Virus record (IMG/VR): IMGVR_UViG_3300031952_001327
Location: 1-37,628 of that record
From: a virus
Length of the DNA stretch: 37,628 bases
Direction: 5' to 3' (one strand)
Shown: piece by piece, positions 19,205 to 37,012 of the stretch
How positions within the stretch are numbered: position 1 is the first letter of the stretch
How the letters are laid out: the number at the start of each line of letters is the position of its first letter
Notes under the pieces: generated by a model
Seen by the model: the letters and a program-made list of their open reading frames with translations, nothing else
Database searches by the model: none
Told to the model about the DNA's origin: nothing
Position numbers and translations under genes: made by a program

Positions 19205-19206
19205 TG

Positions 19207-22960: not shown

Positions 22961-23674
22961 GTGCTGAAGGTACATACTGTGTCCGCCCCAATGTTGGCTA
23001 CAAACATTACTGGTGTACTGTTTTCTGGTTGTTGGGAAGGGCAGACATGTTTTATTTTAGGAGGAGGGCCCACCCTTGAAGGATTCAACTATCAGTGGCT
23101 ACAAGGACAGAAGGTCATCGGTATTAACAAAACCTTCTCAGTCTACCCGGCAACTGTGAACTACTCGATGGACTATAATTTCTTTGACCTGGTACAGTTT
23201 ACAGCAGCTGATCCAAGGTCGAAGAACCACCCTCTCTACGTATCTTGGATGGCATACACTGGTATCAAAGTTTTCCTTCATCATGGTGAGAAGGATCGAT
23301 TTGCTCAAGGAATCCATTATGTGAATGAGCTTCGAGAGAAGGGAATCAGCTTCGATCTTAACAAAGGAATCTACCCAGGAAACAACTCAGGTTGTGGGGC
23401 TCTGATGCTCGCAGTAGCTCTCGGGTGTAAAAAGATTGGTCTGCTTGGGTATGACTTCAAGGTCCAAGGAAAGAAAACTCACTGGCACGAAGGATACGGG
23501 TATTCTCTTGAGGATGTTGTGAGGAGTCTTAAGGACTTTCAACAGAAAATTGATGAGATTGGTCCTGATATTCTTGAGATGGGAATACAAGTTGTGAACT
23601 TGAGTCCAGATAGTGCTCTTCAGAGCTTTCCTCGTTCAGATATTCGAACCTTCCTTGAACAGTATAATCAATAA
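22961..23674 (+). CDS. MptE/Maf-like (DUF115) glycosyltransferase-type protein, copy 1
   Basis: GTG 22961 with AAGGGGGG just upstream is preferred over GTG 22922, which lacks a site (237 residues). CFILGGGPTLEGFNY at the start is the nucleotide-binding G-G-G-P-[ST]-L motif of the DUF115/MptE/Maf-like fold; it is followed by KVIGINKTF and a central SGCGALMLAVALGCKKIGLL then GYDFK, which match the S/G-A-L-x-L-A...L-G...I-x-L-x-G-x-D pattern of this group. Maf proteins transfer nonulosonic acids to flagellin in the cytoplasm; related folds include GT42-like sialyltransferases. The exact donor is unknown. A paralogue lies 330 bases downstream. Confidence 0.75.
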   Translation: MLKVHTVSAPMLATNITGVLFSGCWEGQTCFILGGGPTLEGFNYQWLQGQKVIGINKTFSVYPATVNYSMDYNFFDLVQFTAADPRSKNHPLYVSWMAYTGIKVFLHHGEKDRFAQGIHYVNELREKGISFDLNKGIYPGNNSGCGALMLAVALGCKKIGLLGYDFKVQGKKTHWHEGYGYSLEDVVRSLKDFQQKIDEIGPDILEMGIQVVNLSPDSALQSFPRSDIRTFLEQYNQ

Positions 23675-23683
23675 AGGATCTCC

Positions 23684-23905
23684 ATGTGGTCATGGTTACA
23701 AATGTGCGATATTCTGGGCAGTGTACTGATACTTCTTGGACTGTGGAACGAATCAAGAGATCGGCGTTGGTGGCTCGTCTACTGCGCAGGATCAGGTTTC
23801 TTTTTGTATGTTGTTATTTCCAAAGGACTGGTCGGTCTGACGATCATGGGTCTCGCAACACTAGTTACAGGACTGAGAAATTCAAGAAAGAAATCAAAGG
23901 TATGA
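23684..23905 (+). CDS. Small membrane protein, 73 aa
   Basis: The ATG follows AAAGGAT. Two hydrophobic segments, about residues 7-21 (MCDILGSVLILLGLW) and 31-62 (WWLVYCAGSGFFLYVV, GLVGLTIMGLATLVTGL), suggest two or three membrane spans with a basic C-terminal tail (NSRKKSKV). Its stop overlaps the next ATG as ATGA. It lies between two DUF115-type genes and could anchor or recruit a glycosyltransferase to the membrane; that is inference. No family recognised. Confidence 0.7.
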   Translation: MWSWLQMCDILGSVLILLGLWNESRDRRWWLVYCAGSGFFLYVVISKGLVGLTIMGLATLVTGLRNSRKKSKV

Positions 23906-24012
23906 GTTTCAAAAGACATACAAGAGGACCCGATCCGTGTAAACTATGTGGGAAAGCTCACAAGAACGGAATGCAAAAGATTTGGGGCTTTTCGAGGAGT
24001 AGCTTTGGATAA
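23902..24012 (+). CDS. Micro-ORF with CxxC knuckle, 36 aa
   Basis: ATG 23902 overlaps the preceding TGA as ATGA. The product, GPDPCKLCGKAHKNGMQKI in its centre, has CKLCG followed by a His, a half zinc-knuckle pattern. Its stop (24010-24012) lies just after a GAGGAG-led TTG (24005) that could start the next gene, so both junctions look like translational coupling. It may be a small regulatory or zinc-binding peptide, or a leader; the alternative is chance. Confidence 0.45.
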   Translation: MSFKRHTRGPDPCKLCGKAHKNGMQKIWGFSRSSFG

Positions 24013-24682
24013 TTCTGTGTTTATTGTCGGGGGTGGTCCCTCGCTAACAGGATTCAATTTCCATGTCCTTGATGGAAAAGATACTATCGCTATCAATCAA
24101 TCTCTCTTTCGGTTGCCCTCCGCAAAATTCTTTTGCACAATGGACTACACATGGAGGCTTCATCTTGATGAATCGAAAGAGAGGGAGCATAAACAAACAT
24201 TCCTGAAGCACTCAGCGCGTAAGATTTTTGTAGTAGGATTTGCCAAGCCACGTTTAGTGGTTCACGGAGATCGGTGTATCGAAGATGCGGATCATCGGTT
24301 GAAGTACGACCTTTCTGATTTCAATCAAGTCGCATACTGCAATGGATATGGAGGAGTTGGAACCACCTGGGAGGACTTTCGGGTTGGCAGTGAATCAGGA
24401 TACGCAGGTCTCCAATTAGCAGTTCTACTTGGATATACTAAGATCTATCTCCTTGGTTTCGATTTCAAGATAACTCCATACCAAACTCACTTTCATCAAG
24501 ATTACTTGTCAAGAGATCCTGTAGAGTTCATGCGTCGTCTTGATGAGTACTACACACCATATCCTAACGCAATCTTTCAGATCCGGCAGATGGGGATTGA
24601 GATTTTCAGTGGTTCTGCTATTAGCAGACTGAACCATCACTTGTTGTATGTTGACGTAGAGAATCCCACATGCCAACACTAG
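24005..24682 (+). CDS. MptE/Maf-like (DUF115) glycosyltransferase-type protein, copy 2
   Basis: TTG 24005 with GAGGAG at 23994-23999 gives 225 residues that start close to the nucleotide motif, as in copy 1; GTG 23948 (244 residues) is the longer alternative. SVFIVGGGPSLTGFNFHVL, DTIAINQSLFRLP, SGYAGLQLAVLLGYTKIYLL, then GFDFK correspond to the same elements as copy 1. A THFHQDY segment matches the THWHEGY of copy 1, so the His pair may be functional. The two copies differ greatly outside the motifs, implying different acceptors or donors. The end overlaps the next gene. Confidence 0.75.
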   Translation: MDNSVFIVGGGPSLTGFNFHVLDGKDTIAINQSLFRLPSAKFFCTMDYTWRLHLDESKEREHKQTFLKHSARKIFVVGFAKPRLVVHGDRCIEDADHRLKYDLSDFNQVAYCNGYGGVGTTWEDFRVGSESGYAGLQLAVLLGYTKIYLLGFDFKITPYQTHFHQDYLSRDPVEFMRRLDEYYTPYPNAIFQIRQMGIEIFSGSAISRLNHHLLYVDVENPTCQH

Positions 24683-25428
24683 GCTTTGTTATGACCTACT
24701 GCAATCGCCCTGAGCAGCTAAGGAATACTCTACAAGCTCTACGTCATAGTTTTCAAACCGGAGATCAGCTGATCATCGTTGATGATGCTAGTGCCCCAGA
24801 TCAGAGTGCTAGACAGGTACTTAGCGGCTTTGATCTGCCGGTTGTGCTGGTTGAGATCACTCCGGAACAGAAGAAGTGGATCAATCCCAGTATCCCATAC
24901 AACATGGGTTTCTCGAAGGCGACAGCAGATGCTGTTGTTATCATGAATGCTGAGTGTATTCCCATCAGTGGAGCTGTTGAGCGTCTCCGAGCTCAAGTAG
25001 ATGATCACAACTACGTTGTCATGCCCTGCTACACATCAACACAAGTAGAGTTCAATCATTTGTGTGCTGTTCGAAATCGATCCGATGTACTGTTTGCCTA
25101 TCACAAGGTCGTATTTCCTTTCAAACAAGACCAATGGTACCACCATCCGGTACACCTCCCCACTTGGTATCACTTCACCACGTGCCTCACACTGAAGAAT
25201 CTTCGGACCTTGGGCGGATTTAATGAAGCTTTTGCTACAGGGTACTGTTTTGAAGATAATGAGTTTCTCTGGCGTGTTCGGAAGATTCTTGCAGTTCAAG
25301 GTTGGGATGAGAATCACGGATACGTTATTCATCAGTGGCATCCTAAAGATACTAGATTCAGGGGTGGATGTCCTGAGTGGGAACGGAATAGACAACTCTG
25401 GTTAAGGATCAAAGAAGGAAGAGAATGA
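24670..25428 (+). CDS. GT2-like glycosyltransferase
   Basis: The 252-residue product starts LGFVMTYCNRPEQLRNTL and QLIIVDDASAPDQSA, the standard GT-A opening with the uridine-binding Asp pair. The metal-binding position reads MNAECIP, where N-x-E replaces the usual DxD; this variant occurs in the GT2/GalNAc-transferase branch. LGGFNEAFATGYCFEDNEFLWR supplies the acceptor-binding and catalytic E-D region. No membrane segment is present, so it acts in the cytoplasm. It overlaps both neighbours. Confidence 0.85.
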   Translation: MPTLGFVMTYCNRPEQLRNTLQALRHSFQTGDQLIIVDDASAPDQSARQVLSGFDLPVVLVEITPEQKKWINPSIPYNMGFSKATADAVVIMNAECIPISGAVERLRAQVDDHNYVVMPCYTSTQVEFNHLCAVRNRSDVLFAYHKVVFPFKQDQWYHHPVHLPTWYHFTTCLTLKNLRTLGGFNEAFATGYCFEDNEFLWRVRKILAVQGWDENHGYVIHQWHPKDTRFRGGCPEWERNRQLWLRIKEGRE

Positions 25429-26285
25429 GACGCATTCCAAAAGTTTGTTACTTCTATTGGGGTGGTAAGGTCATGCCGTACCTTCGGTACATGTCCATGA
25501 CCACTTTTAAGAAGTACAACCCTGAGTGGAAGGTCGTCGTTTTCACCCCTGTCCAGTTGACAACGAGCCAGTCTTGGACGACCTTCGAGAACAAAGAGGA
25601 ACTGAATACAAAAGACTACATGCCGGAACTTCAGAAGGCTGGTGTGATTGTGTCCCCGTTTGATATGCAGGGCATTGGATTCACAAATGATCTACCTGAG
25701 GTTTTGAAATCCGATATCCTCCGAATGTTCCTTCTATCGAAGTTCGGAGGATTGTGGTGTGATGATGATATTTTGTTCTTCCGTCCGTTGACTCACTCAC
25801 TAGAACCAACAGACTGCTCTGTGTATTTCTGTTTTCGTCGAGGTGGACCGACACAGGACGATACACCAAAGAATGGGCCACGGTACCACTCTATCGGATT
25901 CTTAGCAGGGGAACCGGGGAACAAACACTTCTCGAAGCTGTTTGATGGAGTATGCAATGTTTTCAATCCGACACAGTACCAGAGTGCAGGTTCGCCGTAC
26001 TACAAGACTGTGTATAGCGAATTGAATATGAACAGCTGTCCTGATGTTTACAACATTGATGTAAACACTGTCTACCCGACACGAGCAGCCCTCAGCATTT
26101 TTACACTACCTGCCGGTCACTTTATGAACGAGGTTTTGACACCGAAGTGTATTGGTATCCACTGGTACGGAGGTGCTCCTGCAAGTGGACAGTATCAGAA
26201 TTTGGTTACAAGAGAAACCTACAATCAGTACGATAATATCGTGTGTTGGCTGCTACGGAAGATCAACGAAGGTGTGCAGGTATGA
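25425..26285 (+). CDS. GT32-like glycosyltransferase (DXD sugar-binding family)
   Basis: The 286-residue product has the Gly_transf_sug (PF04488/GT32, OCH1-like) signature: PKVCYFYWGG at the start, SDILRMFLLSKFGGLWCDDD then ILFFRPL around residues 103-128, where D-D-D binds the nucleotide sugar metal. Later, IGFLAGEPGNKHF and GIHWYGG complete the fold. Start ATGA overlaps the preceding stop, and the stop overlaps the next ATG. These enzymes commonly add mannose, galactose or related sugars; the donor cannot be told from sequence. Confidence 0.87.
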   Translation: MRRIPKVCYFYWGGKVMPYLRYMSMTTFKKYNPEWKVVVFTPVQLTTSQSWTTFENKEELNTKDYMPELQKAGVIVSPFDMQGIGFTNDLPEVLKSDILRMFLLSKFGGLWCDDDILFFRPLTHSLEPTDCSVYFCFRRGGPTQDDTPKNGPRYHSIGFLAGEPGNKHFSKLFDGVCNVFNPTQYQSAGSPYYKTVYSELNMNSCPDVYNIDVNTVYPTRAALSIFTLPAGHFMNEVLTPKCIGIHWYGGAPASGQYQNLVTRETYNQYDNIVCWLLRKINEGVQV

Positions 26286-27133
26286 GTAAGATCACAGAAG
26301 TTCAGGCGAACTTTGATTGGGCAGAAACTCGTGGTAAGAAACTCGTGGTCTTCATGCCAAACTACAAATGGCCTGAATTCACTGAGTTTTCGATCAAAAA
26401 CATCCACACCACTGTTGATCCCAAAGACTATCTGATTATCATAGGAAATGATAACGTTGCTGTGAATTGGGAGTATCTTTGGTCGCATAACGTGCGATGC
26501 TTTACACTTCTTCGGGATGAGCAAGGTCCTCGAAACTCTTGTTTTGTTCGGAACTACGCAATAAAAAGATGCCAGTGCGACATTCTTCTCAACAAGGATT
26601 GCGAAGTAGTTCTAACCGGAGATTTTATTTATAATGCTATCAATTTTCATAACGCCTGGCGTCCAGGAAATGTGTTTGTTCTTGATCCTTCTCAGACTGA
26701 TGAGCTGCTTAAATTAGGAGATCCTGATAAATTCATCCAGGACAGAACTCCCACGAAACGAACTGAGATGATGGTAGCTATGAATAGTTACCATGCCAAG
26801 GAGATCATCCAACTTGCCGATGGAAAGATCAATCCTTCGACGTACTATCACTATGCGTATGCAGTTGATTTGAAATATCTTCACTACTTGGGTGGATATG
26901 ATGAGGACTACTGGTCCTATGGATGGGAGGATAGTGATATGTTCGTACGGCTGTTTCATATTGGAGTTCAACCAATTCCTGATTACACGTGTACAGCAAT
27001 TCATCCGTACCATTTTCGTCGTGAGGATTGTGTTCGGGAGAAAGAGATTTCAATGCGAGATGTTTTTGTTCAGAAGAGTCCTGCTGATTTCTTTCGAAAC
27101 AAAGACGGTTGGGGTGAAGGAGTTCATGTTTGA
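26282..27133 (+). CDS. GT-A glycosyltransferase (GT2/GT7C-like C-terminus)
   Basis: ATG 26282 in ATGA overlap is preferred over the upstream in-frame TTG 26243 (283 residues). The protein begins with GKKLVVFMPNYKWPEFTEFS, and has LIIIGNDN, RNSCFVRNYAIKRCQCDILL then NKDCEVVL (putative metal-binding region). YLGGYDEDYWSYGWEDSDMFVR is the conserved G-G-x-D-E...G-x-E-D-x-D element of galactosyl/GalNAc-transferase C-terminal domains. A cytoplasmic enzyme extending a glycan is the simplest reading; acceptor unknown. Confidence 0.82.
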   Translation: MSKITEVQANFDWAETRGKKLVVFMPNYKWPEFTEFSIKNIHTTVDPKDYLIIIGNDNVAVNWEYLWSHNVRCFTLLRDEQGPRNSCFVRNYAIKRCQCDILLNKDCEVVLTGDFIYNAINFHNAWRPGNVFVLDPSQTDELLKLGDPDKFIQDRTPTKRTEMMVAMNSYHAKEIIQLADGKINPSTYYHYAYAVDLKYLHYLGGYDEDYWSYGWEDSDMFVRLFHIGVQPIPDYTCTAIHPYHFRREDCVREKEISMRDVFVQKSPADFFRNKDGWGEGVHV

Positions 27134-27145
27134 GGAGGTGTCGTA

Positions 27146-27841
27146 ATGGCTCTGAATGTGAGGAGTAACATCATGGACAATTTAGGAAAAGGAATTCATC
27201 TTTCTATGGCGGATGCCGTTGGGGTCCCTGAACCCTTGAAAGCAGGATTCTACCAGGCTCATACGAACTTCGTGCATGGAACATGCCTCGAGTTTGGTGT
27301 AATGTATGGAAACTCGTTCATGTGGCAGATCCTCCAGATCTTGAATTTCTTTCCGAAAGACCAGCTTATCGGTTTTGATTCCTGGCAAGGGCTTCCGAAG
27401 GAGACTCCAGGAGTGTGGGCTCCTGAGCGGCATCATGAAGGGGCGTTTTCCACAACGAAGGACGTTGTTATTGGTCGAATGGAGGAGTATAACGTGTTTA
27501 TTGGGGACCGGTTCAAGCTGGTCGATGGATTCTTTTCCAAGAGTTTGACTCCAGAACTTCAATCCGTGATTGGTGAAGGAGATAGCAAGGTGATCTTTAT
27601 CAACGTGGATGTAGATATCCACTCGTCGGCGATGGAAGTCCTTCGCTGGGTCCGCCCACTCCTTCAAGTCGGAACAGTTCTTTATTTCGACGACTGGAAA
27701 GATCCAATTGATACGCACGATGGTCCGTGGGGTGAACACTTGGCGTGGGCGCAGTGGACAAAGGAGAACCCCTCCATCCAGGCCAAACTCGTTTCTCTCA
27801 ACGATGTGAACCAGAGAGCTTTTGAAATCACGGCGTTATAA
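27146..27841 (+). CDS. TylF/MycF-like sugar O-methyltransferase
   Basis: The 231-residue product has the TylF family pattern: GTCLEFGVMYGNSF (SAM-binding loop), LIGFDSWQGLPKE, INVDVDIHSSAMEVLRWVRP and GTVLYFDDWKD. The acidic residues in VDVD and DDW correspond to the metal-binding Asp pair of macrocin-type O-methyltransferases, which methylate sugar hydroxyls. It is led by a strong GGAGGTG site. In this cassette it probably caps or modifies a glycan residue. Confidence 0.87.
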   Translation: MALNVRSNIMDNLGKGIHLSMADAVGVPEPLKAGFYQAHTNFVHGTCLEFGVMYGNSFMWQILQILNFFPKDQLIGFDSWQGLPKETPGVWAPERHHEGAFSTTKDVVIGRMEEYNVFIGDRFKLVDGFFSKSLTPELQSVIGEGDSKVIFINVDVDIHSSAMEVLRWVRPLLQVGTVLYFDDWKDPIDTHDGPWGEHLAWAQWTKENPSIQAKLVSLNDVNQRAFEITAL

Positions 27842-27849
27842 GGTGACCC

Positions 27850-28701
27850 ATGGACGAATGGCTCAGACTGATACAAGATTATCCGACCGTAGCATTTAAC
27901 TACAAAAATTTCAATGGTAGTGTGAACTCTCCGGAAGCAGGTTTCAAGTTTCTTGTTCAGTGTGAGCCATATATCGGGATGCGTGAGAATTGGGATGTGG
28001 CGATCCTCCGACGGTATCAAACAGTAGTCACATGGAACAGGAAGTTCTATACTAACTACGTGAATTTGCTTCCGAGCATGCGATTGGTCACAGGATGCTT
28101 GGGCTGCAACGCACCAGAACCCCTCACTGAATTAGTACCTTGGGACAAGAAGATTCACGGAGTCTGTTTTCTGAATCATCTTCGGAGTACAGGACTCCCA
28201 GGGGATATTTACTGGCTCAGGAATGAAGCTCTTCAGAATATCGGGGGAGATCTGACTCGCCATGTTTGGTGTACAAAAAAGTGGGGGGGTGAGCACTACC
28301 AAGGAGCAGTTGAAGCTCCGTATCACCACAGTCATACGAATCATCTCAAGAAGATATCTGAGTATAAATTCTGTCTGGCTTTTGAATCGTCCTATCATTC
28401 ATTCTGGTCAGCTGGATTCATCACCGAGAGGATTCTCAACTGCTTCAGAGCAGGAACGGTTCCAGTGTACATTGGTGCGTGGGACATACAGGACTATATT
28501 CCGGTTGATCTGTTCCTTGACTTTAGGAAGTTCTGGCCTTTTCTTGGAGCACCTCGGTACTACCCAGAGTTTACCAAATATCTACTGGAGTTCCCAAGAT
28601 CTCAATACGAGGATATGGTTGGACGAGCTTATGAGTGGGTCAAAACCTGTCGAATCGGAAGTATTCCTGATCTTGAGGCAGTACTAAGGAGCTTACTGTG
28701 A
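27850..28701 (+). CDS. GT10-like fucosyltransferase
   Basis: The 283-residue product carries the C-terminal alpha-1,3-fucosyltransferase signature: ISEYKFCLAFESSYHS, then SAGFITERILNCFRAGTVPV and YIGAWDIQDYIPVDLFLDF, which align in order with the typical YKF-x-L-x-x-E-N-S ... G-Y-x-T-E-K ... VPVYxG motif block (donor-binding Rossmann domain). The Lys of T-E-K is Arg here. It acts as a GT-B enzyme, most likely using GDP-fucose or a related 6-deoxy sugar. RBS AAGGTGA; the stop overlaps the next GTG. Confidence 0.8.
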   Translation: MDEWLRLIQDYPTVAFNYKNFNGSVNSPEAGFKFLVQCEPYIGMRENWDVAILRRYQTVVTWNRKFYTNYVNLLPSMRLVTGCLGCNAPEPLTELVPWDKKIHGVCFLNHLRSTGLPGDIYWLRNEALQNIGGDLTRHVWCTKKWGGEHYQGAVEAPYHHSHTNHLKKISEYKFCLAFESSYHSFWSAGFITERILNCFRAGTVPVYIGAWDIQDYIPVDLFLDFRKFWPFLGAPRYYPEFTKYLLEFPRSQYEDMVGRAYEWVKTCRIGSIPDLEAVLRSLL

Positions 28702-29240
28702 TTCTAAATGTGGGTGGACAACAAACAAGAGATAGGTATCCGCAAGGCTGGATCTGTGTGGACATTCTACCTGGAGCAGATTACTACTGTGATGTGTCCA
28801 AGATGGAGCTTCCGTTCAAGAACGAAACATGTGAAGCTATCTACTGCTCACACATGCTTGAGCATATCTGGTCGTGGCGACAGGACTTTGTGATGTCGGA
28901 GTTCTTCCGAGTTCTTAAGCATAACTGTCCGATCCGGATTGTAGTTCCTGATATGGACATCGCAATTAACAACTATGTAGCAAATCGAGCAGATGGTTCG
29001 CCTGGTCGTTTGGCCGGATGTATGGACTGGTGGTTTGATCCGCAACCAGATAAAGATGGGAACGGACAACTCAGCCATGTATACGGATTCAACTGGTTTT
29101 CAATGCATTTCCAGGTAACTCGGGCTGGATTCATCAATGTAATCCGGAGTCAGTATAATAAAGGGTCACAGGTGTTCTCTGGATGTGATAACCCGGGGCA
29201 CGAACATACATCGTTGTATGTTGAAGCAATCAAGTCATGA
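28698..29240 (+). CDS. SAM-dependent methyltransferase (Methyltransf_11-like)
   Basis: The 180-residue product starts at GTG 28698 in GTGA overlap, with AAGGAG at 28686-28691. MILNVGGQQTRDRYPQGWIC then VDILPGADYYCDVSKMELPF, CEAIYCSHMLEHIWSW and FFRVLKHNCPIRIVVPDMD follow the pattern of predicted SAM methyltransferases seen in surface-polysaccharide clusters (L-N-x-G, D-x-x, S-H-x-L-E-H, R-V-L-K, V-P-D). Its acceptor may be a sugar. The glycine-rich loop is short, so it may be a minimal enzyme. Confidence 0.83.
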   Translation: MILNVGGQQTRDRYPQGWICVDILPGADYYCDVSKMELPFKNETCEAIYCSHMLEHIWSWRQDFVMSEFFRVLKHNCPIRIVVPDMDIAINNYVANRADGSPGRLAGCMDWWFDPQPDKDGNGQLSHVYGFNWFSMHFQVTRAGFINVIRSQYNKGSQVFSGCDNPGHEHTSLYVEAIKS

Positions 29241-29251
29241 GAGGAGTTGCA

Positions 29252-30340
29252 GTGGCGACCAAGACAATTGTTACAGTGGTTGGAATTAGACCTGACTTCA
29301 TACGAATGAGCCGGGTGTTTGCTCTGCTTGATCAGAGTAAGTTCAATCACATTCTTATTCACTCAGGTCAGCACTTCGATCGGATGCTGTCCGATGTTTT
29401 CTTCCAGGATCTCAAAATTCGTCAACCGGACTACAATCTAGGTATTGGAGGTCATGGGAAGGAGCACTGGCAACAGTTGGGTGAGATCTCTGAAGCTATG
29501 ATCCACTTGTTCCGGAGAGAGCATATTGATCCTGCTCTAGTTCTGTTTCTTGGTGATTCCAACTCGGCCGCTGTTTCGATGGTTCTCAAGAAGGAAGGTT
29601 ACGAGATTGGACATATCGAGGCTGGTATGCGTTCCGGTGACAAACGCATGCTTGAAGAGATCAACCGCACTGTTTGTGACCACTGCTCGACCCTTCACTT
29701 TGTTTACCATCAAGATTATGCGGCCAATCTTGTTCGTGAGAATCTTCCGGCACAAGGAATCCACACTGTGGGTAATACCATCGTAGAGGTCACACGTCCC
29801 TTGGCCGAACCTCTGTGGCAAACGAAGAAGGCCAGCAACTACATTCTTCTGGATATCCATCGACCTGAGAACTTCAAGTATCCTGAGCGTCTTCGGAACA
29901 TCTACCGCTTTGCAATCCTATGTGAGAAAAATTATGGGGTTCCTGTGAAATTTCTCAAGTTTGGACGTAGTGTACAGGCTTTTGAAGAGGCCAAGATTCC
30001 CACCAATGCTTTTTGTATGGTGGACTTAATGTCCTACAAGGACTTCTTAGCTACTCAATATCACAGTTTGTTCATGATTTCGGACTCAGGAACAGCTCAG
30101 GAAGAACCTGCACTACTCAACACACCAGTTATCGTTCCCCGTGAGTTTACTGAGAGGCCACAATCGATGCAGAACAACTGCTCGTTCTTGCTCAATCGAT
30201 TAGAAAGTTTGGAGCAGCAGGACGATGCTTGTCAGTGGGTAAATAGCTATATTCAGGGCTGCATACAGTCTAGTTCAATGTGGTTGGGTGATGGACATAC
30301 GGCCACAAACATCGTTGACATTTTGGAAGGGGAGCTATGA
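29252..30340 (+). CDS. wecB: UDP-GlcNAc 2-epimerase (WecB-like)
   Basis: GTG 29252 with GAGGAG at 29241-29246 is preferred; ATG 29237 is the ATGA-coupled alternative. The 362-residue product has the whole WecB/CapG motif series: VVGIRPDFIRMSRVF, HSGQHFDRML, FLGDSNSAAVS, IEAGMRSGD, LEEINRTVCDHCS and ILLDIHRPENF, including the catalytic Asp, two Glu and His of the family. It interconverts UDP-GlcNAc and UDP-ManNAc, or the corresponding L-sugar forms as in L-FucNAc synthesis (CapG/WbjD). It is cytoplasmic and supplies a donor for the cassette. Confidence 0.93.
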   Translation: MATKTIVTVVGIRPDFIRMSRVFALLDQSKFNHILIHSGQHFDRMLSDVFFQDLKIRQPDYNLGIGGHGKEHWQQLGEISEAMIHLFRREHIDPALVLFLGDSNSAAVSMVLKKEGYEIGHIEAGMRSGDKRMLEEINRTVCDHCSTLHFVYHQDYAANLVRENLPAQGIHTVGNTIVEVTRPLAEPLWQTKKASNYILLDIHRPENFKYPERLRNIYRFAILCEKNYGVPVKFLKFGRSVQAFEEAKIPTNAFCMVDLMSYKDFLATQYHSLFMISDSGTAQEEPALLNTPVIVPREFTERPQSMQNNCSFLLNRLESLEQQDDACQWVNSYIQGCIQSSSMWLGDGHTATNIVDILEGEL

Positions 30341-31278
30341 TATTCCCTTGGAAGAAGTACGAAGAGATCCCACTTAGTTGTAGAAACACACTTCAGGTCT
30401 TCATAACAACTAAGTGTAACCTTCATTGTGCAGGTTGTTTTGCTAGAAAGGTCATGGATCATCAGGAGGAGATCAGATACCAGGAGTATGTTGAGGCCGT
30501 TGCCAACGCCCAAAGAAAAGGAGCAGAGCAGATCAATCTTCTTGGGGGTGAGCCCACTCTTCATCCTGATCTTTCGAGAATGGTCATGTTCAATCAGGAT
30601 CTGGGACTGAAAACAACATTGTATACCAATGGTTACTTTCTGAAGGATTGGTATGAAAGTGGTGCGAAGATTCGAATATCTCTCTACTCAGCTCATGGGG
30701 ACTACAAGAGTCTGGATACTCTTCAAGTGGACTATCCGGTGGACATTTGCTTCATGGTATCCAATAAGACCACAGTTGAAGAACTTCTTGGGGTGGTCGA
30801 AGATCCGCGATGCCAGATCTTGTTCATTTCTAGCCTTCGGGAGCTGGACAATCCACGGCACGAATTTTTTGATGATACGGTCAACACAATGCCGGTCATG
30901 CAGTACAAAGAGTTGGTGCACGAGTTTCTTTGGAGATATGATGGCCCGAAGGAAATTCATGTATCTAAGCGTGGGATGTTTGAGAGCACCATCAATCCAG
31001 GTCTGTACCACTGCCGCTTTGCTAACTATATTCCGGGCAACAAGATTATTCAATGCCCGTACGATATTGTTAATCTGAGATACCAAAAAGATTATCAGTT
31101 TGGCATCCGCCCATGTCAGCACAACTCAACCTGTTTGATGTCCAAGGTTATCTATAGGAGGAGGATTCTCGATCATTTCAAGGATGTTCGAGAGAGTGTT
31201 GCTCGATGGCCTGAGTGGAAACGGAACATTGGACATGGTCTTGGACCTACACTTTCGGAATCAGGAGAAGTTCTATGA
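30337..31278 (+). CDS. Radical-SAM enzyme with C-terminal cysteine cluster
   Basis: The 313-residue product has the radical-SAM motif C27-x3-C31-x2-C34 (TTKCNLHCAGCF) and the SAM-binding LLGGEPTLHP near residues 68-78. Four additional cysteines (C226, C240, C260, C266) lie in YHCRFANYIPGNKIIQCPYD and GIRPCQHNSTCLM, suggesting a twitch/SPASM-like auxiliary Fe-S cluster. Such enzymes modify peptides or sugars through the 5'-deoxyadenosyl radical. Length excludes QueE-type enzymes. Its place inside a glycan cassette is unusual for a phage. ATGA overlaps on both sides. Confidence 0.87.
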   Translation: MIFPWKKYEEIPLSCRNTLQVFITTKCNLHCAGCFARKVMDHQEEIRYQEYVEAVANAQRKGAEQINLLGGEPTLHPDLSRMVMFNQDLGLKTTLYTNGYFLKDWYESGAKIRISLYSAHGDYKSLDTLQVDYPVDICFMVSNKTTVEELLGVVEDPRCQILFISSLRELDNPRHEFFDDTVNTMPVMQYKELVHEFLWRYDGPKEIHVSKRGMFESTINPGLYHCRFANYIPGNKIIQCPYDIVNLRYQKDYQFGIRPCQHNSTCLMSKVIYRRRILDHFKDVRESVARWPEWKRNIGHGLGPTLSESGEVL

Positions 31279-32138
31279 GCATCGGTTGTTTGATGATCAC
31301 AACAAATCGCCCTGACCGATTCGAGATGACTCTTCAGGCGATGGACTCGGTGAACAAGTGTGGACACGATCTGGATCAGAAGGTCCTCTCAGTTGATCTT
31401 CTTCCTGAATGCTCTCATATTCAACCTGGATATGAGGCGAGTTTGATCTCAGCGGCAGAGAAGTGGGGCTGGCAGGTCGTGACTGGTGAGTGTACCGGAC
31501 ATCAAGCAATGATTCATAACATTTGTAGGGGACTAAGCATAATTCACACTAATTGGTTGTTCTACTGCGAAGATCATGTTGTTATACAACGAATACCTTC
31601 TGAAGAGAGTCTGGACTTCGCTGATAGACACGCATGTATCGAATGGGTATGCTACAACACACATATCCATCAGGAGAATCTTCTCAATGTTCCAGGGTTT
31701 ACCGAGCGTCCTGGTCGAGAGGGACGTCTGGCCTTCGTAAACGATCCAGCCAACTGGTTCAGGACATTCATGGGTGCAGAGTTCCTTTTGAAAGATACAC
31801 CAATTCAGGATGAGTACTATCTGAACTTCCCAGCAGCAATTACGTACACTGAGCTGTTTAGGGAGTTACTCTTGTATGGGATTAAGAACTACCACGGAAT
31901 CGGAATCGAGGTTGGATTCACAAAAGCCTGGTTCGATACCAGATCTAATCGGGCGAACTGCTGTGCGATTTACACACAGCCAAAAACAATCGAAGAACTA
32001 CCGCTGGCCAGTTTTGCAGCTCTCCATCAGAGAGCTTGTATGCGTTTTAGGAACAACGATCCATCAATGCTGCACAGTTCCATAATTCCTCATTCTGTTC
32101 TGCCTACGGACGTGAAGATGCAGAGGAGTTTCTTCTGA
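31275..32138 (+). CDS. GT-A-like glycosyltransferase
   Basis: ATG 31275 in ATGA overlap, with AGGAGAAG upstream, is preferred over ATG 31215 (287 residues). SIGCLMITTNRPDRFEMTLQ is the GT-A opening. TNWLFYCEDHVVIQ carries the E-D-H element at the usual DxD site. The rest (ANWFRTFMGAEFLLKDTPIQ) is not recognised, so acceptor and donor are open. It is followed by the CTG-started homing endonuclease, whose start overlaps this stop. Confidence 0.7.
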   Translation: MSIGCLMITTNRPDRFEMTLQAMDSVNKCGHDLDQKVLSVDLLPECSHIQPGYEASLISAAEKWGWQVVTGECTGHQAMIHNICRGLSIIHTNWLFYCEDHVVIQRIPSEESLDFADRHACIEWVCYNTHIHQENLLNVPGFTERPGREGRLAFVNDPANWFRTFMGAEFLLKDTPIQDEYYLNFPAAITYTELFRELLLYGIKNYHGIGIEVGFTKAWFDTRSNRANCCAIYTQPKTIEELPLASFAALHQRACMRFRNNDPSMLHSSIIPHSVLPTDVKMQRSFF

Positions 32139-32854
32139 CCGAGTACTATGAACATCTTTGTGCTTGCGGATGCGGTCAGCAGATCCTGGTAAAGGAGTGC
32201 CATAAGTATGCTGGAATTCCAAAATATCTCAAGGGCCACAGATGGAAGAATCAGAAACAACCAAAGGATCTAAATCAAAGAAGAAGAGAGAAGTCCACGG
32301 GTCGAAAACACACAGATGAGGTGAAAGAGAAGATACGGAAATCAAAGTTGGGTGGACACCGTACGACCTCAGAACAAGCAAGGAAGAACATCTCTGCTGC
32401 AAGAATTGGAAAGCACAGGAGTGAAGGGACGAAGAAGAAGATTGCAACGAAGTTGAGAGGAACTAAGCGGAGCGTTGAGACATTGCAGAAAATGAGGCGG
32501 GCAGGACAAGAATGCTGGACCAGCCCTGATTTTGTGAAGAAACAAATGTCCGCTCGTCATGTTGCTCAGAACAAGGCTGAGAAGTTTCTTGAATCATTGC
32601 TTGATCAGTTCCCTGGTTTCGAGTTTGTAGGTGATGGTAAGAAGATCATCTCTGGTAAGTGCCCTGATTTTGTCAACGAAGAAAAACATCTCATTATCGA
32701 GCTCTTTGGTGATTACTGGCACGAACCTGAAGAGATCGAACCTCGAGTTCAGCTGTTTGAATCGATGAGGTACAGAGCGCTTGTGATCTGGGAACATGAG
32801 TTGAAAGACCCAGAAAAGCTGATTCAGAGAATTAAGGAGTTTACTAATGGATGA
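32135..32854 (+). CDS. Free-standing homing endonuclease, NUMOD3 repeats plus Vsr-like nuclease, CTG start
   Basis: The coding frame is open from 32051 with no ATG, GTG or TTG before 32321. Translation from CTG 32135 (GAGGAG at 32123-32128, overlap CTGA with the previous stop) gives 239 residues that begin with a plausible zinc element, EHLCACGCGQQI ... KECHKYAGIPKYLKGHRW. Residues about 56-123 hold four NUMOD3-like DNA-binding repeats (GRKHTDEVKEKI, GGHRTTSEQARKNI, GKHRSEGTKKKI, GTKRSVETLQKM). Residues 147-230 form a Vsr-like nuclease (NKAE149, CPDF178, HLIIE189, FGDYWH196, IWEHEL). It is a mobile selfish gene that cleaves DNA to spread. Confidence 0.85.
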   Translation: MTEYYEHLCACGCGQQILVKECHKYAGIPKYLKGHRWKNQKQPKDLNQRRREKSTGRKHTDEVKEKIRKSKLGGHRTTSEQARKNISAARIGKHRSEGTKKKIATKLRGTKRSVETLQKMRRAGQECWTSPDFVKKQMSARHVAQNKAEKFLESLLDQFPGFEFVGDGKKIISGKCPDFVNEEKHLIIELFGDYWHEPEEIEPRVQLFESMRYRALVIWEHELKDPEKLIQRIKEFTNG

Positions 32855-33827
32855 TGCCAAGAAGGTTCTGGTGGTGGGGGGTGCGGGATACGTAGGAGGA
32901 ACCTTAGTTGACCAACTGAGATCTGCGGGATTCAGCCCGACAGTGTATGATATATTAGCCTACGAAGATCGGTTTCTGAAAAACGTTAACTTCGTTTATG
33001 GTGATGTCCGGGACCGAGAAAAGCTCCTCAGACTTCTCCCGGACTACGACATCGTCGTATGGCTTGCCGCAGTTGTAGGAGATGGCGCTTGTGCTGCTGA
33101 TCCGTTCTTATCTGAATCTATCAATGAAATCTCGGTTAAGTGGCTGGTGGACAACTATGGTGGTCGGATCATCTTCCCGTCCACTTGTTCTGTCTACGGG
33201 GTGAACAATGATCTGATTGATGAGTGTACCACACCCAATCCGTTATCTGTGTACGCCAAGACAAAACTGGCTGCTGAGCAGTACATGCTGGATGTGGCTG
33301 GTGAACGTTCCTTAGTGTTTCGACTTGGAACTTTATATGGTATCGGTGATGCTCACTCTCGTCTTCGTCTGGACTTGGTTGTCAACATCCTGACCAAAAG
33401 AGCTGTCCAAGGTGAGACTCTTCGAGTTTGTGGTGGTGAACAGTGGAGACCATTGATTCATGTTCAGGATGTTGCCCGGGAGATGGTTTTCGGAGCCTAT
33501 AACGAAATTACAGGGCTCTACAACCTAGCTACTCAAAATAGTACTATAAGGGAAATTGCAGAAGAGGTATCTGCAGTAGTTCCGGAGTGTAAGGTCGAGT
33601 ACACCGAGGGTAAGTTTGAAGATCTCAGAAACTATCGAGTAAACTGTGATCGATGGAAGTCCACCGCTAGTTCCTGCGGAGTACTGCTATCCAGATGGGG
33701 ATGGGCCCTAAGACAAGGTATCCTTCAGGTTGCCCAGGTGATAAAAGAAAACCGCATCAAGAATCCCCAAGATCCTATCTACTCAAATGAAGCTCACATT
33801 CAGGCCTTGTATCGGAAATGGCCGTAA
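32847..33827 (+). CDS. Extended SDR sugar-nucleotide epimerase/dehydratase
   Basis: The 326-residue product has the NAD-binding G-G-A-G-Y-V-G at residues 11-17, the substrate-site PSTCSVYG, catalytic YAKTK and WRPLIHVQDVA, hallmarks of extended SDR sugar-nucleotide enzymes such as 4-epimerases and 4,6-dehydratases. The T-D-E motif of dTDP-glucose 4,6-dehydratase is absent, so an epimerase or a divergent dehydratase is more likely. It overlaps the homing endonuclease end by 8 bases and has AAGGAG upstream, so it was evidently adapted to that insertion. Confidence 0.85.
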   Translation: MDDAKKVLVVGGAGYVGGTLVDQLRSAGFSPTVYDILAYEDRFLKNVNFVYGDVRDREKLLRLLPDYDIVVWLAAVVGDGACAADPFLSESINEISVKWLVDNYGGRIIFPSTCSVYGVNNDLIDECTTPNPLSVYAKTKLAAEQYMLDVAGERSLVFRLGTLYGIGDAHSRLRLDLVVNILTKRAVQGETLRVCGGEQWRPLIHVQDVAREMVFGAYNEITGLYNLATQNSTIREIAEEVSAVVPECKVEYTEGKFEDLRNYRVNCDRWKSTASSCGVLLSRWGWALRQGILQVAQVIKENRIKNPQDPIYSNEAHIQALYRKWP

Positions 33828-33844
33828 ACTAAGGAGGGTGACTC

Positions 33845-34078
33845 ATGTTGCCGTATCTGTTCGTTCGATGGCTGTATGGTTTCTGTTTGCTTATCGATGG
33901 TATTATCGTGGTGTTGTCCTTGGGGTTCGTGAATCCTGATCTAAGTCTTTCAGTATGGAGTCTTGCTAACTTCGAGGATCGCGAAGATCACACACACGAG
34001 GCGAAGGAAGTTGCACAGGAACTGAGGAGTAACGAAAGAGAGAACACTAGTTGGTATGATAACTGGGAGGAGATGTAG
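33845..34078 (+). CDS. Small single-span membrane protein, 77 aa
   Basis: The ATG follows AAGGAGGGTG, the strongest site around. Residues about 5-30 (LFVRWLYGFCLLIDGIIVVL) form one membrane segment; the rest is highly charged (EDREDHTHEAKEVAQELRS) and probably helical in the cytoplasm. Its place between two sugar-nucleotide genes suggests an anchoring role for a cytoplasmic enzyme complex. No known family. Confidence 0.65.
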   Translation: MLPYLFVRWLYGFCLLIDGIIVVLSLGFVNPDLSLSVWSLANFEDREDHTHEAKEVAQELRSNERENTSWYDNWEEM

Positions 34079-34079
34079 T

Positions 34080-34580
34080 ATGAACAATGATGTGAAAGGT
34101 GTGAATACCGTTCCGATCTTAATCAAGGGTGCCCGATTCGTTGATGATCGGGGGAGCTTGAACTTCTGCAATGAGTGGTCACCTCTTACTGCAGGAGTAA
34201 AACGATTTTACCAGGTTCAGAATCACCGATCAGACTTCATCCGAGCATGGCATGGGCATCAGAAGGAGGCCAAATTTGTCTACGTGGCCCAAGGTGCTGC
34301 TCTGATTTGTGCTACACCCTTATTTAAGAATCCTGTCGAGGGTGGGAGTCCACAATATCCAGTTCCAATTGATCCGGTTATGTACAAGTTCGTCATGGCA
34401 GAGGATACCCCAGCTATTCTGTTCATCCCCGCAGGTTTCTATAACGGATTCAAAACTTTGATCGCAGATACGATTCTTCTGTTCTTCTCCACTTCAACTC
34501 TGGAAGAAAGCAAAGGAGATGACATTCGTCTGCACTGGAATGTGTTCGGAACCAAAATGTGGGGGGAGGACTACCGATGA
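34080..34580 (+). CDS. RmlC-like cupin sugar epimerase
   Basis: ATG 34080 with GGAGGAG upstream is preferred over ATG 34056 (166 residues). The fold matches RmlC-type sugar 3- or 3,5-epimerases: FVDDRGSLNF, IRAWHGHQKEAKFVYVAQGA and FIPAGFYNGFKTLIADTI. The His in RAWHGHQ is in the place of the catalytic base. The family His in GFAHGF is Asn here, so specificity may differ. It is coupled to the next gene by ATGA, like the fused cupin of CapF split in two. It probably epimerises a 4-keto-6-deoxy sugar nucleotide. Confidence 0.8.
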   Translation: MNNDVKGVNTVPILIKGARFVDDRGSLNFCNEWSPLTAGVKRFYQVQNHRSDFIRAWHGHQKEAKFVYVAQGAALICATPLFKNPVEGGSPQYPVPIDPVMYKFVMAEDTPAILFIPAGFYNGFKTLIADTILLFFSTSTLEESKGDDIRLHWNVFGTKMWGEDYR

Positions 34581-35443
34581 AGCACGTATTGATTCTTGGT
34601 GCAACTGGAATGTTGGGGTCTGCAGTAGCAAAAAAACTCACGGGGTCTCGGAAGTACCGTGTGACTGCTACCTGTAGAGGTACGGCATGGAGTACACTCG
34701 AAGAGGTCGTACCAAATGGTCTTGGAAACACTCGGATGGTTTTTGATCCTGAATGTTTTACGGATCATGATGATAACCACTATATTCCGTTCCGGAACGA
34801 GCCCTACGACTACATCATCAATTGTATTGGAATTATCAAACCACAAATCACCAAGGTGGGCACTGAGTGTGCTGTCCGTGTAAATTCACTGTTTCCACAT
34901 GTTCTAGCTCGATACTGTGCGGAACATCATATCGGACTGATTCACATCACCACCGATTGTGTGTACTCAGGGGTCAAGGGCAACTATATTGAAACAGATG
35001 TTCATGACTGTGATGATGTTTACGGAAAAACCAAATCGCTGGGCGAGCCCGCAGATCAGGCCATGGTCCTAAGGACGAGTATAATTGGACCTGAGATCCA
35101 TAACTTCTCCAGCCTTGTTTCTTGGGCTCAATCACAGGCCGGAAAAGCCGTCAACGGATTTACAAATCACAAGTGGAACGGGATCACTACAAAAATGTAT
35201 GGTGCAGTCGTTGAGACCATCATTGATAATACGATGTGGGGTCCAGGACTCTTCCATGTATTCTCACCACGGCCAGTGACCAAGTTCGAGTTGCTTCAGA
35301 TGATTGACAACAGATATGAGCTTCATCTGGCCATCAATTCGACTGAGGCGACCGTACCAGTTGACCGAATACTAGATACGAAATGGGGATTGTGCCACAC
35401 ACTTAACATTCCTGATCTCAGAACACAGATAGCGGAGATGTAA
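34577..35443 (+). CDS. RmlD/CapF-type sugar-nucleotide reductase (SDR)
   Basis: ATG 34577 in ATGA overlap has GGGGGGAGGA upstream (288 residues). LILGATGMLGSAVAKKL is the NADP-binding start; ITTDCVYSGVKGNYIE, DDVYGKTKSLGE and MVLRTSIIGPEIHNFSSL, with NHKWNGITTKMYGAVV and GLFHVFSPRPVTKFELL, follow the WbjC/CapF/RmlD-like reductase branch in order. These reduce the C4 keto group to give L-rhamnose- or L-FucNAc-type donors. Together with the preceding cupin and the 2-epimerase it sketches an L-6-deoxy sugar pathway. Confidence 0.87.
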   Translation: MKHVLILGATGMLGSAVAKKLTGSRKYRVTATCRGTAWSTLEEVVPNGLGNTRMVFDPECFTDHDDNHYIPFRNEPYDYIINCIGIIKPQITKVGTECAVRVNSLFPHVLARYCAEHHIGLIHITTDCVYSGVKGNYIETDVHDCDDVYGKTKSLGEPADQAMVLRTSIIGPEIHNFSSLVSWAQSQAGKAVNGFTNHKWNGITTKMYGAVVETIIDNTMWGPGLFHVFSPRPVTKFELLQMIDNRYELHLAINSTEATVPVDRILDTKWGLCHTLNIPDLRTQIAEM

Positions 35444-35815
35444 ATGCTTGGTCGAACTAATCTACGAGAGCAGATTGGCTACATCACTGTAGGTCTTCTG
35501 GCTCACTGCATGATTGATAGGAATAAGGAGTGTAAGCAGATTGTTCTTGATTCCCTTCGAACAATTCTGGATCCCACCTATGTTGGACACACGGCCTGGA
35601 AGGACCTAGCATTTCAAAGATACCAGGAGTATGATTGTCTTACTCGAACTCTCGAGCAGGAAAAGATGACGATTCCAGAACTGATCGTAGCTATCGAATT
35701 AAGGAAAGCACAAGAATTTTTTAGCAAGTTGGCACATCAAGCAATTCTGGATACGGAATATAGAACCTGTCAGGTTTCACCCGGAGTTCGGACCTTCTTG
35801 GTGAAGAATGGATGA
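35444..35815 (+). CDS. Hypothetical protein, 123 aa
   Basis: The ATG abuts the preceding TAA and the stop overlaps the next gene. The protein is helical and Leu/Glu-rich (IGYITVGLLAHCMIDRNKECKQIVLDSL), with no membrane segment or catalytic motif. It does not match a family I know. Its fixed position within the cassette suggests a partner of the neighbouring sugar enzymes. Confidence 0.65.
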   Translation: MLGRTNLREQIGYITVGLLAHCMIDRNKECKQIVLDSLRTILDPTYVGHTAWKDLAFQRYQEYDCLTRTLEQEKMTIPELIVAIELRKAQEFFSKLAHQAILDTEYRTCQVSPGVRTFLVKNG

Positions 35816-35826
35816 GGAGTCAAAAT

Positions 35827-36552
35827 ATGGCTTGGGTGGTGGTCGGGTACTACACAGTCGGAACTTTGTATGAAACTGAAGCCAAGCGCCTGATTCCTTC
35901 GTTTCAGAAATTCAACATACCATACTTCATCTCCCCCACTGCGGATCAGGGAAGCTGGTACAAGAACACTCAATTCAAACCAACATTCTTGAAGAGCATG
36001 ATGCAGCAGTTCGCATCAAAATCTATTATCTATGTGGATATCGATGCGGAGTTCATGCAGTATCCTGACCTCTTCGACCAGCTAGATCAAAGGCCAGATG
36101 TCCATATTGGAGTACATCTTCTAGATCATGCCAAGAGGGGACGTCCTCAGGCCGGATTTGAGATGTTAAGTGGAACAGTCTACCTGAAAAATACTTCTAT
36201 AGTTCATCAGGTGATCGATACTTGGATTCAGAAGTGCAGTGTTGGAGGACTGTTGTGGGATCAGGTTGCCCTTAAAAATGCAATCGGATCTGTTCCGTAC
36301 TATATTCTTCCTGAGCAGTACTGCATGATCTTCGATTACATGTCAGATGTTCAGAATCCAGTTATCAAGCACTATCAGGCATCTCGAAGGTGCAAGAATA
36401 TCCAAGGACCTACTCCTGAAGCAAATCATATGCCAGTGTCTCCTAATGAAGCCCCGAAAATGCTGAATGGCCTTCCTCCGCATCCTAGAAAGGTGGTTTC
36501 TGGGGGTCTTGTTCGTTATCATAGAAAATGGCGGGGTCTTGGAACAGTATAG
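35827..36552 (+). CDS. Nucleotide-diphospho-sugar transferase-like glycosyltransferase (PF03407-like)
   Basis: ATG 35827 with GAGGAG at 35814-35819 is preferred over ATG 35812 (241 residues). MAWVVVGYYTVGTLYETEA starts a GT-A fold; SKSIIYVDIDAEFMQYPDLF contains the D-x-D metal site; FEMLSGTVYLKNTSIVHQV, LLWDQVALKN and YYILPEQYCM match PF03407/GT77-like DxD transferases, and VIKHYQASR gives the late His. Cytoplasmic, likely adding one sugar to the cassette glycan. It is the last gene of the block. Confidence 0.8.
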   Translation: MAWVVVGYYTVGTLYETEAKRLIPSFQKFNIPYFISPTADQGSWYKNTQFKPTFLKSMMQQFASKSIIYVDIDAEFMQYPDLFDQLDQRPDVHIGVHLLDHAKRGRPQAGFEMLSGTVYLKNTSIVHQVIDTWIQKCSVGGLLWDQVALKNAIGSVPYYILPEQYCMIFDYMSDVQNPVIKHYQASRRCKNIQGPTPEANHMPVSPNEAPKMLNGLPPHPRKVVSGGLVRYHRKWRGLGTV

Positions 36553-36565
36553 AGAGGAGTGCCGA

Positions 36566-37012
36566 ATGATTAGAAAATCCACTGTTACTGTCTACTATGC
36601 TACGCCCATTCGAGGAAACATGGGAGCTGATGCTACAGTTGAGTATATGGCCACCAACTGTGCGAGAGCCAAGAGAAACGTTGAAGTTCTTCAGACCATG
36701 TTTCCAGAAATCGAGTGGGTATCAGTAGCTCCGTATGACCGGATCGTCCAGAAGCTTCTGGCCCGAAAACAGGTCAAGATCCAGGATGTGCTTCAGGCAG
36801 ATTTCGAGGTTGGTGACGAGTGCGATGGACTTCTGGAGCATCTGTGGGAACCATCAGGAGGAGCTGATGAGGAATTCGAGAGGCAATCAGATCGGGGCAA
36901 GATGTGCTTAAAACTGATGCATGCAACTGATTGGCAGATCTGGAAGTGCAACATCCCGGATCTTGAGCAATTCGTCAAGGATGTTATGATGAAAGTACTT
37001 CCGTATTACTGA
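36566..37012 (+). CDS. Nucleoside 2-deoxyribosyltransferase/DUF4406-like protein, copy 1
   Basis: ATG 36566 with AGAGGAG upstream gives 148 residues; the longer in-frame start at 36467 lies inside the preceding gene and is rejected. TVYYATPIRGNMGADA, TMFPEIEWVSVAPYD, DECDGLLEHLWEPSGGADEE and the trailing R-x-x-x-x-x-G-K follow the NDT/DUF4406 fold (Asp and the S-G-G-x-x-x-E site). Members cleave or exchange N-glycosidic bonds of nucleosides or nucleotides. A role in nucleotide salvage or base modification is possible. Confidence 0.65.
   Translation: MIRKSTVTVYYATPIRGNMGADATVEYMATNCARAKRNVEVLQTMFPEIEWVSVAPYDRIVQKLLARKQVKIQDVLQADFEVGDECDGLLEHLWEPSGGADEEFERQSDRGKMCLKLMHATDWQIWKCNIPDLEQFVKDVMMKVLPYY

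Follow-up and report, generated by a model that had tools for sequence, protein, structure and literature searches.

We analysed the IMG/VR virus record IMGVR_UViG_3300031952_001327, a linear stretch of 37,628 bases (hereafter the window), in which a 13.6 kb glycan-synthesis cassette (22961-36552, orf27 to orf45) lies on one strand directly 3' of the fibre genes. The cassette is probably a phage-encoded, cytoplasmic and membrane-independent glycosylation locus for virion proteins, and sequence comparison together with structural models points to the fibre or baseplate proteins made from orf24, orf25 and orf26 immediately upstream as the likeliest acceptors. A virion-protein acceptor is favoured because such loci stand behind fibre, J or head genes, because orf27 and orf45 are found fused, and because the predicted folds of the two families resemble Maf and A064R, respectively. 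The window covers part of the genome of a T4-like phage with a contractile tail; its structural genes, which encode the sheath and tubes of the tail, the hub and wedges of the baseplate, and fibre-like proteins, all lie on the plus strand. Negative results given below for the window hold for this fragment only. Its tail sheath was less than 60% identical to every one of 50,697 phage records, and sheath relatives up to 81% identical were present in IMG/VR.

Constant ends and variable middle of the cassette

The fibre-like gene orf26 ends at 22905, and orf27 follows after 16 nt if its earliest possible start (22922) is used or after 55 nt at GTG 22961, the better start, with its strong Shine-Dalgarno sequence. 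Spacing within the cassette ranges from overlaps up to +42 nt and resembles that of the structural genes. These positions and gaps agree with an earlier note on this DNA, which had described the cassette as running on from the fibre genes with the same strand, spacing and overlaps. When the fibre/cassette junction was scanned for terminators and promoters, the signals were near background and showed no excess. The T4-type late promoter TATAAATA gave a single chance match, on the minus strand, and was set aside as uninformative.

Gene order was compared across 11 contigs reaching both ends of the cassette (the window, G016-G019, G021, G022, G025, G029, G031, and G032). In all 11, orf27 and then an orf29-like second copy stood at the start and orf45 at the end, and the cassette followed the fibre genes orf24-25-26, or whichever of these the slice holds, with one other gene between the fibres and orf27 in G022. 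The search of related genomes for cassette and fibre genes, which the earlier note had proposed, thus found the block behind the fibres in every informative contig; this recurrence of the same block at the same place is more than chance. The interior was variable. Cassettes measured 6.9-16.8 kb and held 9-21 genes from orf27 through orf45, and the interior genes in common with the window ranged from nearly all in G031 to no recognisable one in G016 and G017. Where recognised, the interior genes of these relatives encoded glycosyltransferases, methyltransferases, and sugar enzymes, and the orf36/40/42/43 set also lay just ahead of orf45 in G018, G022, G030, and G031. The contig G032 (G032:C1:26682-38739; locus L190) is a 179 kb contig with the same tail-plus-cassette synteny in a metagenome-assembled genome (MAG) named Candidatus Borrarchaeum weybense; it is probably a phage contig binned into an archaeal genome.

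No protein encoded in any of the 11 cassettes was predicted to have more than one span. Within the cassette of the window, a hydrophobic span was predicted only for orf28 and orf41, one in each, so that the two short membrane proteins of the earlier note were recovered. Open reading frames (ORFs) with three or more spans, of the flippase or polymerase type, were found neither in the window nor in the cassettes of its relatives; PF00953 was absent from the window in a search whose control was positive, and no cassette ORF matched PF02397 in the Pfam scans. The claim that a Wzx/Wzy-like protein and an initiating transferase are missing therefore held within the window.

The two end genes are also coupled in other phage lineages. 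A scan with the single orf27 protein returned one locus; an alignment profile was used instead and recovered 15 phage loci. Outside the T4-like relatives, an orf45 relative adjoins orf27 directly in L122, L123, L125, and L128, and the two form one fused polypeptide in L118, L126, and L127, with further fusions in phage and MAG loci. An independent orf45 scan yielded 57 loci; in approximately 40 of them a member of the orf27 family was present, either within the locus itself or elsewhere on its contig, and several others were fusions. Because orf27 relatives occurred in only 21 of the 50,697 phage records, this co-occurrence is far above chance.

Virion genes were found beside the coupled genes. 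A central tail fibre J or J-like tail protein is encoded upstream of the orf27-like gene, with at most one gene between them, in L139, L144, L146, L147, L148, and L151, while in L122 a collagen-like fibre gene lies two genes ahead of the orf45-orf27 pair, and in L125 a weaker match to a fibre was found several genes upstream. The orf27-like gene stands behind tail proteins in Caulobacter phage CcrSC (HOU03_gp516), among head and tail genes in Tetraselmis virus S20, and two short genes past a head protein in L199 (a Zixiibacteriota MAG); in PAJU2 it is ORF010, annotated as a 'structural protein' and adjoining the head-tail adaptor. In XacN1, no obvious virion gene was seen beside it. Linkage of the orf27/orf45 locus to virion structural genes was thus observed in more than one lineage. 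A separate observation concerns the fused genes of one phage group, whose constant upstream neighbour was phrog_24071 (L126:8853-9842, L127:6177-7211, and L157:6092-7093); it may be the acceptor of the fused enzyme in that phage group.

Predicted folds and proposed glycosylation route

The fused relative L118 was modelled with AlphaFold2 from 30 sequences, giving a predicted local distance difference test (pLDDT) score of 87. The best match of its orf27 half (residues 35-264) was Maf of Magnetospirillum (5MU5; Z 15.6 over 197 residues, root-mean-square deviation (rmsd) 4.0, 15% identity), spanning residues 253-513 of 5MU5 only. Its orf45 half (residues 280-467) best matched domain 1 of A064R from PBCV-1 (2P72_B; Z 17.7 over 178 residues, rmsd 2.9, 11% identity), the matched entries being 2P72, 2P73, and 2P6W. 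In the family alignments, the DxD motif of orf45 is invariant (D76, D78), and the orf27 family has the conserved marks GG, NK, MD, and an H near HxGY. Maf enzymes O-glycosylate Ser/Thr of flagellin (PMC11339370), and A064R domain 1 synthesises the terminal part of the capsid glycan of PBCV-1, with methylated L-rhamnose (PMC9614988). In the window, the first cassette gene is orf27 (22961..23674, or from 22922; PHROG 4603, E 6e-26) and its partner is orf29 (23948..24682; PHROG 4603, E 2e-20); both products are Maf/GT42-like and carry the PHROG label alpha-2,3-sialyltransferase. The last gene, orf45 (35812..36552), has no family match, and its product is a putative GT-A-fold glycosyltransferase according to the model of its relative.

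In the proposed route, transcription of the late virion operon would read on into the cassette, and the enzymes of orf36, orf40, orf42, and orf43 would convert host nucleoside diphosphate sugars to one or more rare sugars. The Maf/GT42-like product of orf27, of orf29 or of both could then attach a sugar directly to Ser/Thr of folded virion proteins. The GT-A enzyme of orf45, with its DxD motif, and the variable glycosyltransferases of orf30, orf31, orf32, orf34, and perhaps orf38 would lengthen the glycan, which the products of orf33 and orf35 would O-methylate, and the radical SAM enzyme of orf37 may alter the sugar or the protein. Constant ends with an exchangeable middle would vary the glycan among related phages in the fashion of a serotype locus.

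A broader proposal, which we make tentatively and regard as possible rather than probable, is that tailed phages possess a serotype-like virion glycosylation locus. A conserved two-part core of Maf-type and A064R-type enzymes would add and cap an O-glycan on receptor-binding fibres or head proteins within the bacterial cytoplasm, and swappable genes between them would give each phage its specific coat. Such a locus would recur in several unrelated lineages, with a small form in isolates, and may explain some clusters described as lipopolysaccharide ('LPS') genes.

Acceptors, alternatives and known systems

The candidate acceptors are encoded just ahead of the cassette. The tail protein gene orf24 (19204..20451), immediately 5' of the fibres, has a weak match to Pfam Tail_P2_I (E 0.011), and its synteny is kept; orf25 (20465..21742) and its paralogue orf26 (21754..22905) are fibre-like, the former with approximately 260 conserved N-terminal residues and a variable C-terminus in the alignment, the latter with a weak PHROG virion structural match. 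We did not name the fold of orf26 from its model, which was of low confidence (pLDDT 71) and gave weak Foldseek matches to the phi812 baseplate and a cyanophage tail fibre. The Ser/Thr content of orf25 and orf26 (0.20-0.21) is high, yet ordinary beside orf20, orf22, and orf23; therefore, no acceptor was chosen on this basis.

Several points weigh against glycosylation of virion proteins. Support for a virion glycan comes from sequences and models, the genome in the window is an incomplete linear fragment, and the T4-like relatives form one lineage, so that the flanks they have in common may be partly inherited. The model of orf25/26 is of low quality, and an acceptor motif was not found. Fold likeness at 11-15% identity leaves the acceptor unfixed; glycogenin and GT6 enzymes come next for the orf45 half, at Z 15, 2-3 Z lower. 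The scores of orf27 and orf29 against the Pfam MptE-like family PF01973 (22.2 and 21.3 bits) lie below the curated cut-off of 34.6, and GT42 enzymes also sialylate lipooligosaccharide.

An effect on the host surface is unlikely in our judgement and is the main rival, because it requires no phage flippase. The cassette would alter a glycan of the host surface (the core of lipooligosaccharide, O-antigen, or capsule) through the host flippase and polymerase, resulting in a superinfection block or a changed cell. The lipooligosaccharide core is extended on the cytoplasmic face, which makes a phage Wzx/Wzy unnecessary, and since host lipooligosaccharide can be decorated there with host flippases, the missing Wzx/Wzy, from which the earlier note had argued for a virion acceptor, is a weak argument. 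Lipooligosaccharide sialyltransferases are among the GT42-type folds, and O-antigen loci also have conserved flanks and a variable middle. Modification of the host surface is, moreover, the published reading of P-SSM2-type clusters (PMC7824862; PMC9602691), in which epimerases, cupin isomerases, and glycosyltransferases likewise occur, in some cases together with methyltransferases. However, it does not explain why in several lineages the locus sits in the late virion operon just after genes for fibres, J, or head proteins; the nearest folds of the orf27 and orf45 families act on flagellin or virion proteins; and no relative of either family was found in P-SSM2 with the orf27 and orf45 profiles. 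Judged by these two profiles, the P-SSM2 cluster is probably not the same gene set.

The earlier note had proposed a cytoplasmic acceptor, either virion proteins or phage DNA. Synteny, fusion, and folds back the virion proteins, whereas nothing supported DNA, and sugar-bearing hypermodified bases seem highly improbable as the product. Decoration of DNA by phage glycosyltransferases is well established (T-even glucosylation; Pyle 2024, cited in PMC12619734), but PF00303 (thymidylate-synthase/hydroxymethylase-type) was absent from the window and from the T4-like relatives up to 103 kb, whose records are fragmentary; its single match was on the distant 160 kb contig G028. Furthermore, the locus goes together with structural genes, no gene for nucleic-acid modification adjoins it, and the varied glycosyltransferases and O-methyltransferases point to a long oligosaccharide. 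A further alternative, which is distinctly unlikely, is that the product is a small molecule (a glycosylated metabolite), free or linked to lipid, or that the cassette acts on a host protein such as flagellin or pilin. Radical SAM enzymes and methyltransferases recall natural-product pathways, Maf targets flagellin, and a secondary-metabolite role was suggested for a second cyanophage sugar cluster (PMC7824862). Against this, no carrier, peptide-synthetase, or precursor gene was present among the cassette family matches, late co-expression with structural genes allows little time, and the synteny is with fibres, not with host-takeover genes. A cargo island of mixed purposes at a recombination hot spot by the variable fibres, with no single acceptor, would fit the high turnover of interior genes and the homing endonucleases and intein within or near the cassettes. 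We consider it very unlikely, given that almost every interior gene that was recognised encodes a glycan enzyme or a methyltransferase and that the ends are constant, with the end genes fused in other phages.

Glycosylation of virion proteins by the cassette would have precedents, as chloroviruses and mycobacteriophages glycosylate their own virions (PMC9614988; PMC12363180). Like the cassette, the PBCV-1 system (PMC9614988) has mostly soluble cytoplasmic glycosyltransferases, methyltransferases, and some sugar-nucleotide enzymes, its product is a methylated glycan attached to a virion protein, and its A064R domain 1 is the best match of the orf45-family model (Z 17.7). In contrast, PBCV-1 is an algal virus whose glycan is N-linked to the major capsid protein, its genes do not form part of a virion operon, identity to orf45 is 11%, and no Maf-like enzyme is described for it. 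A064R also has an adjoining methyltransferase domain and rhamnosyltransferase activity, whereas orf45 encodes a single domain of approximately 200 residues and the methyltransferases are separate genes. In mycobacteriophages Che8, Corndog, and Myrna (Freeman 2023, via PMC12363180 and PMC12619734), phage glycosyltransferases decorate capsid and tail-tube proteins in the host cytoplasm, but in these sources each phage has one or two glycosyltransferases, compared with a cassette of 9-21 genes that has conserved ends and its own sugar pathway.

T4-like cyanophages are known to carry clusters of multiple sugar genes (PMC7824862), and those of the P-SSM2 'LPS' type share with the cassette many glycosyltransferases, epimerases, and cupin isomerases, sometimes O-methyltransferases, and a variable content; they differ in being interpreted as modifying the host surface. 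With Maf itself, the orf27 family shares a predicted catalytic fold and a transfer, here proposed, to Ser/Thr of a self-assembling surface protein that is free of a lipid carrier; the 5MU5 chain has 632 residues compared with approximately 250 for orf27 and orf29, the sequence similarity is weak, and orf27 stands beside phage fibres, no flagellar gene being recognised in the window. The 'alpha-2,3-sialyltransferase' loci of CcrSC and S20 combine an orf27-like gene with a methyltransferase, and in S20 also with glycosyltransferases, directly behind tail genes in CcrSC and among head and tail genes in S20; unlike the cassette, they are small sets in which no orf45 relative was detected, and they are annotated without function. 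A literature search for phage sialyltransferase-tail gene clusters found nothing. The earlier note had considered such a pathway in a structural operon new. Virion glycosylation and phage sugar clusters are known, but within the sources searched the following are new: a conserved core of two enzymes, the fusion of the two, their recurrent association with fibre, J, or head genes, and a design of conserved ends and variable middle that recalls a serotype locus.

Sugar clusters of lytic phages have long been taken as modifiers of the host surface, for which direct evidence is sparse in the literature cited. The orf27-orf45 core, its fusion, and its constant place by fibre, J, or head genes offer a testable alternative, namely, that the particle itself is coated. 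If this is true, host range, immune recognition, mucus binding, and receptor-decoy escape would depend on a fast-swapping glycan locus, and the orf27 and orf45 families would serve as metagenome markers for such phages and as a source of compact soluble protein glycosyltransferases.

Gene content of the cassette and its neighbours

All genes from orf24 to orf47 lie on the plus strand. Seven glycosyltransferases are supported (orf27, orf29, orf30, orf31, orf32, orf34, and orf45) and an eighth is possible (orf38). Eight had been claimed in the earlier note; the last is unproven because orf38 and orf44 had no family match in the Pfam and PHROG scans. The two methyltransferases, four sugar-nucleotide enzymes, and one radical SAM enzyme that it listed are all backed by family matches.

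Pfam matches over the cut-off identify orf30 (24670..25428) as a GT2 glycosyltransferase (PF00535), orf31 (25425..26285) as a Caps_synth/DXD sugar-binding glycosyltransferase (PF05704 and PF04488), orf32 (26282..27133 from ATG 26282; a longer form starts at GTG 26243) as galactosyltransferase-type (PF02709), and orf34 (27850..28701) as GT10 fucosyltransferase-like (PF00852). The possible glycosyltransferase orf38 (31275..32138 from ATG 31275; longer from GTG 31215) has a 52% identical relative in L135, and orf44 (35444..35815) encodes 123 residues. Both methyltransferases are S-adenosylmethionine (SAM)-dependent types over the cut-off, orf33 (27146..27841) being TylF/Methyltransf_24-like and orf35 (28698..29240) matching PF08241. 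The radical SAM gene orf37 (30337..31278; PF04055 over the cut-off) has an intact CxxxCxxC motif (CNLHCAGC). The radical SAM gene of a related cassette on contig G018 (L113:16222-17865) contains an intein (Intein_splicing domain), and a LAGLIDADG domain occurs in a metallophosphatase-like ORF close to it.

The sugar-nucleotide enzymes comprise orf36 (29237..30340), a non-hydrolysing UDP-N-acetylglucosamine 2-epimerase-type protein (PF02350, E 1.5e-63); orf40 (32847..33827), a nicotinamide adenine dinucleotide-dependent nucleotide-sugar epimerase-type short-chain dehydrogenase/reductase (SDR; PF01370, E 2e-29); orf42 (34080..34580), an RmlC/FdtA-like cupin epimerase/isomerase with PF00908 barely over the cut-off and a weak PDB match; and orf43 (34577..35443), an RmlD-like SDR reductase (PF04321 over the cut-off, and a PDB search). 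The nearest solved structures in the PDB search were WbpI/CapG-type 2-epimerases for orf36 and 6VO6, a putative sugar-nucleotide epimerase/dehydratase, for orf40. Only RmlC- and RmlD-like genes were seen in the cassette; a 4,6-dehydratase and a nucleotidyltransferase (RmlB and RmlA) were not recognised, and the NCBIfam rmlC and rmlD scores of the cassette genes were far under the cut-offs. For these reasons, an L-rhamnose (dTDP-L-rhamnose) pathway was not accepted. Given these absences and the solved structures closest to orf36 and orf40, which are 2-epimerases and an epimerase/dehydratase-family SDR, the L-6-deoxy-sugar pathway that the earlier note had thought possible is not established; the sugar pathway would begin from host sugar nucleotides.

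The membrane protein of orf28 (23684..23905; 73 residues, by hydropathy) has a 41% identical relative in G010 at 48711, and that of orf41 (33845..34078; 77 residues) a 72% identical relative in L133. In G010, this orf28-like small membrane protein (48711-48914) and an orf42-like cupin (G010:C1:60150-60632) are encoded at a distance from the tail genes, which hints that this relative may have another sugar locus. A homing-endonuclease-like gene, orf39 (32135..32854; GTG 32321 or CTG 32135 as probable start), had been overlooked in the earlier note. Its NUMOD3 and Vsr/DUF559 domains and a PHROG homing endonuclease match suggest an insertion in the cassette, and it is missing from the corresponding orf36-38-40-42-43-45 block of G031; relatives 36-49% identical are dispersed across contig G002.

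No tRNA was found in the window. Among the structural genes, orf05 (3387-4319) looks nucleotidyltransferase-like by eye and has a single PHROG match, to a PHROG without known function; it is kept in most relatives whose contigs extend there. After orf45, orf46 (36566..37012; no Pfam match) and orf47 (37024..37464; no PHROGs match) form a pair of tandem paralogues, which also lies downstream of orf45 in several relatives.

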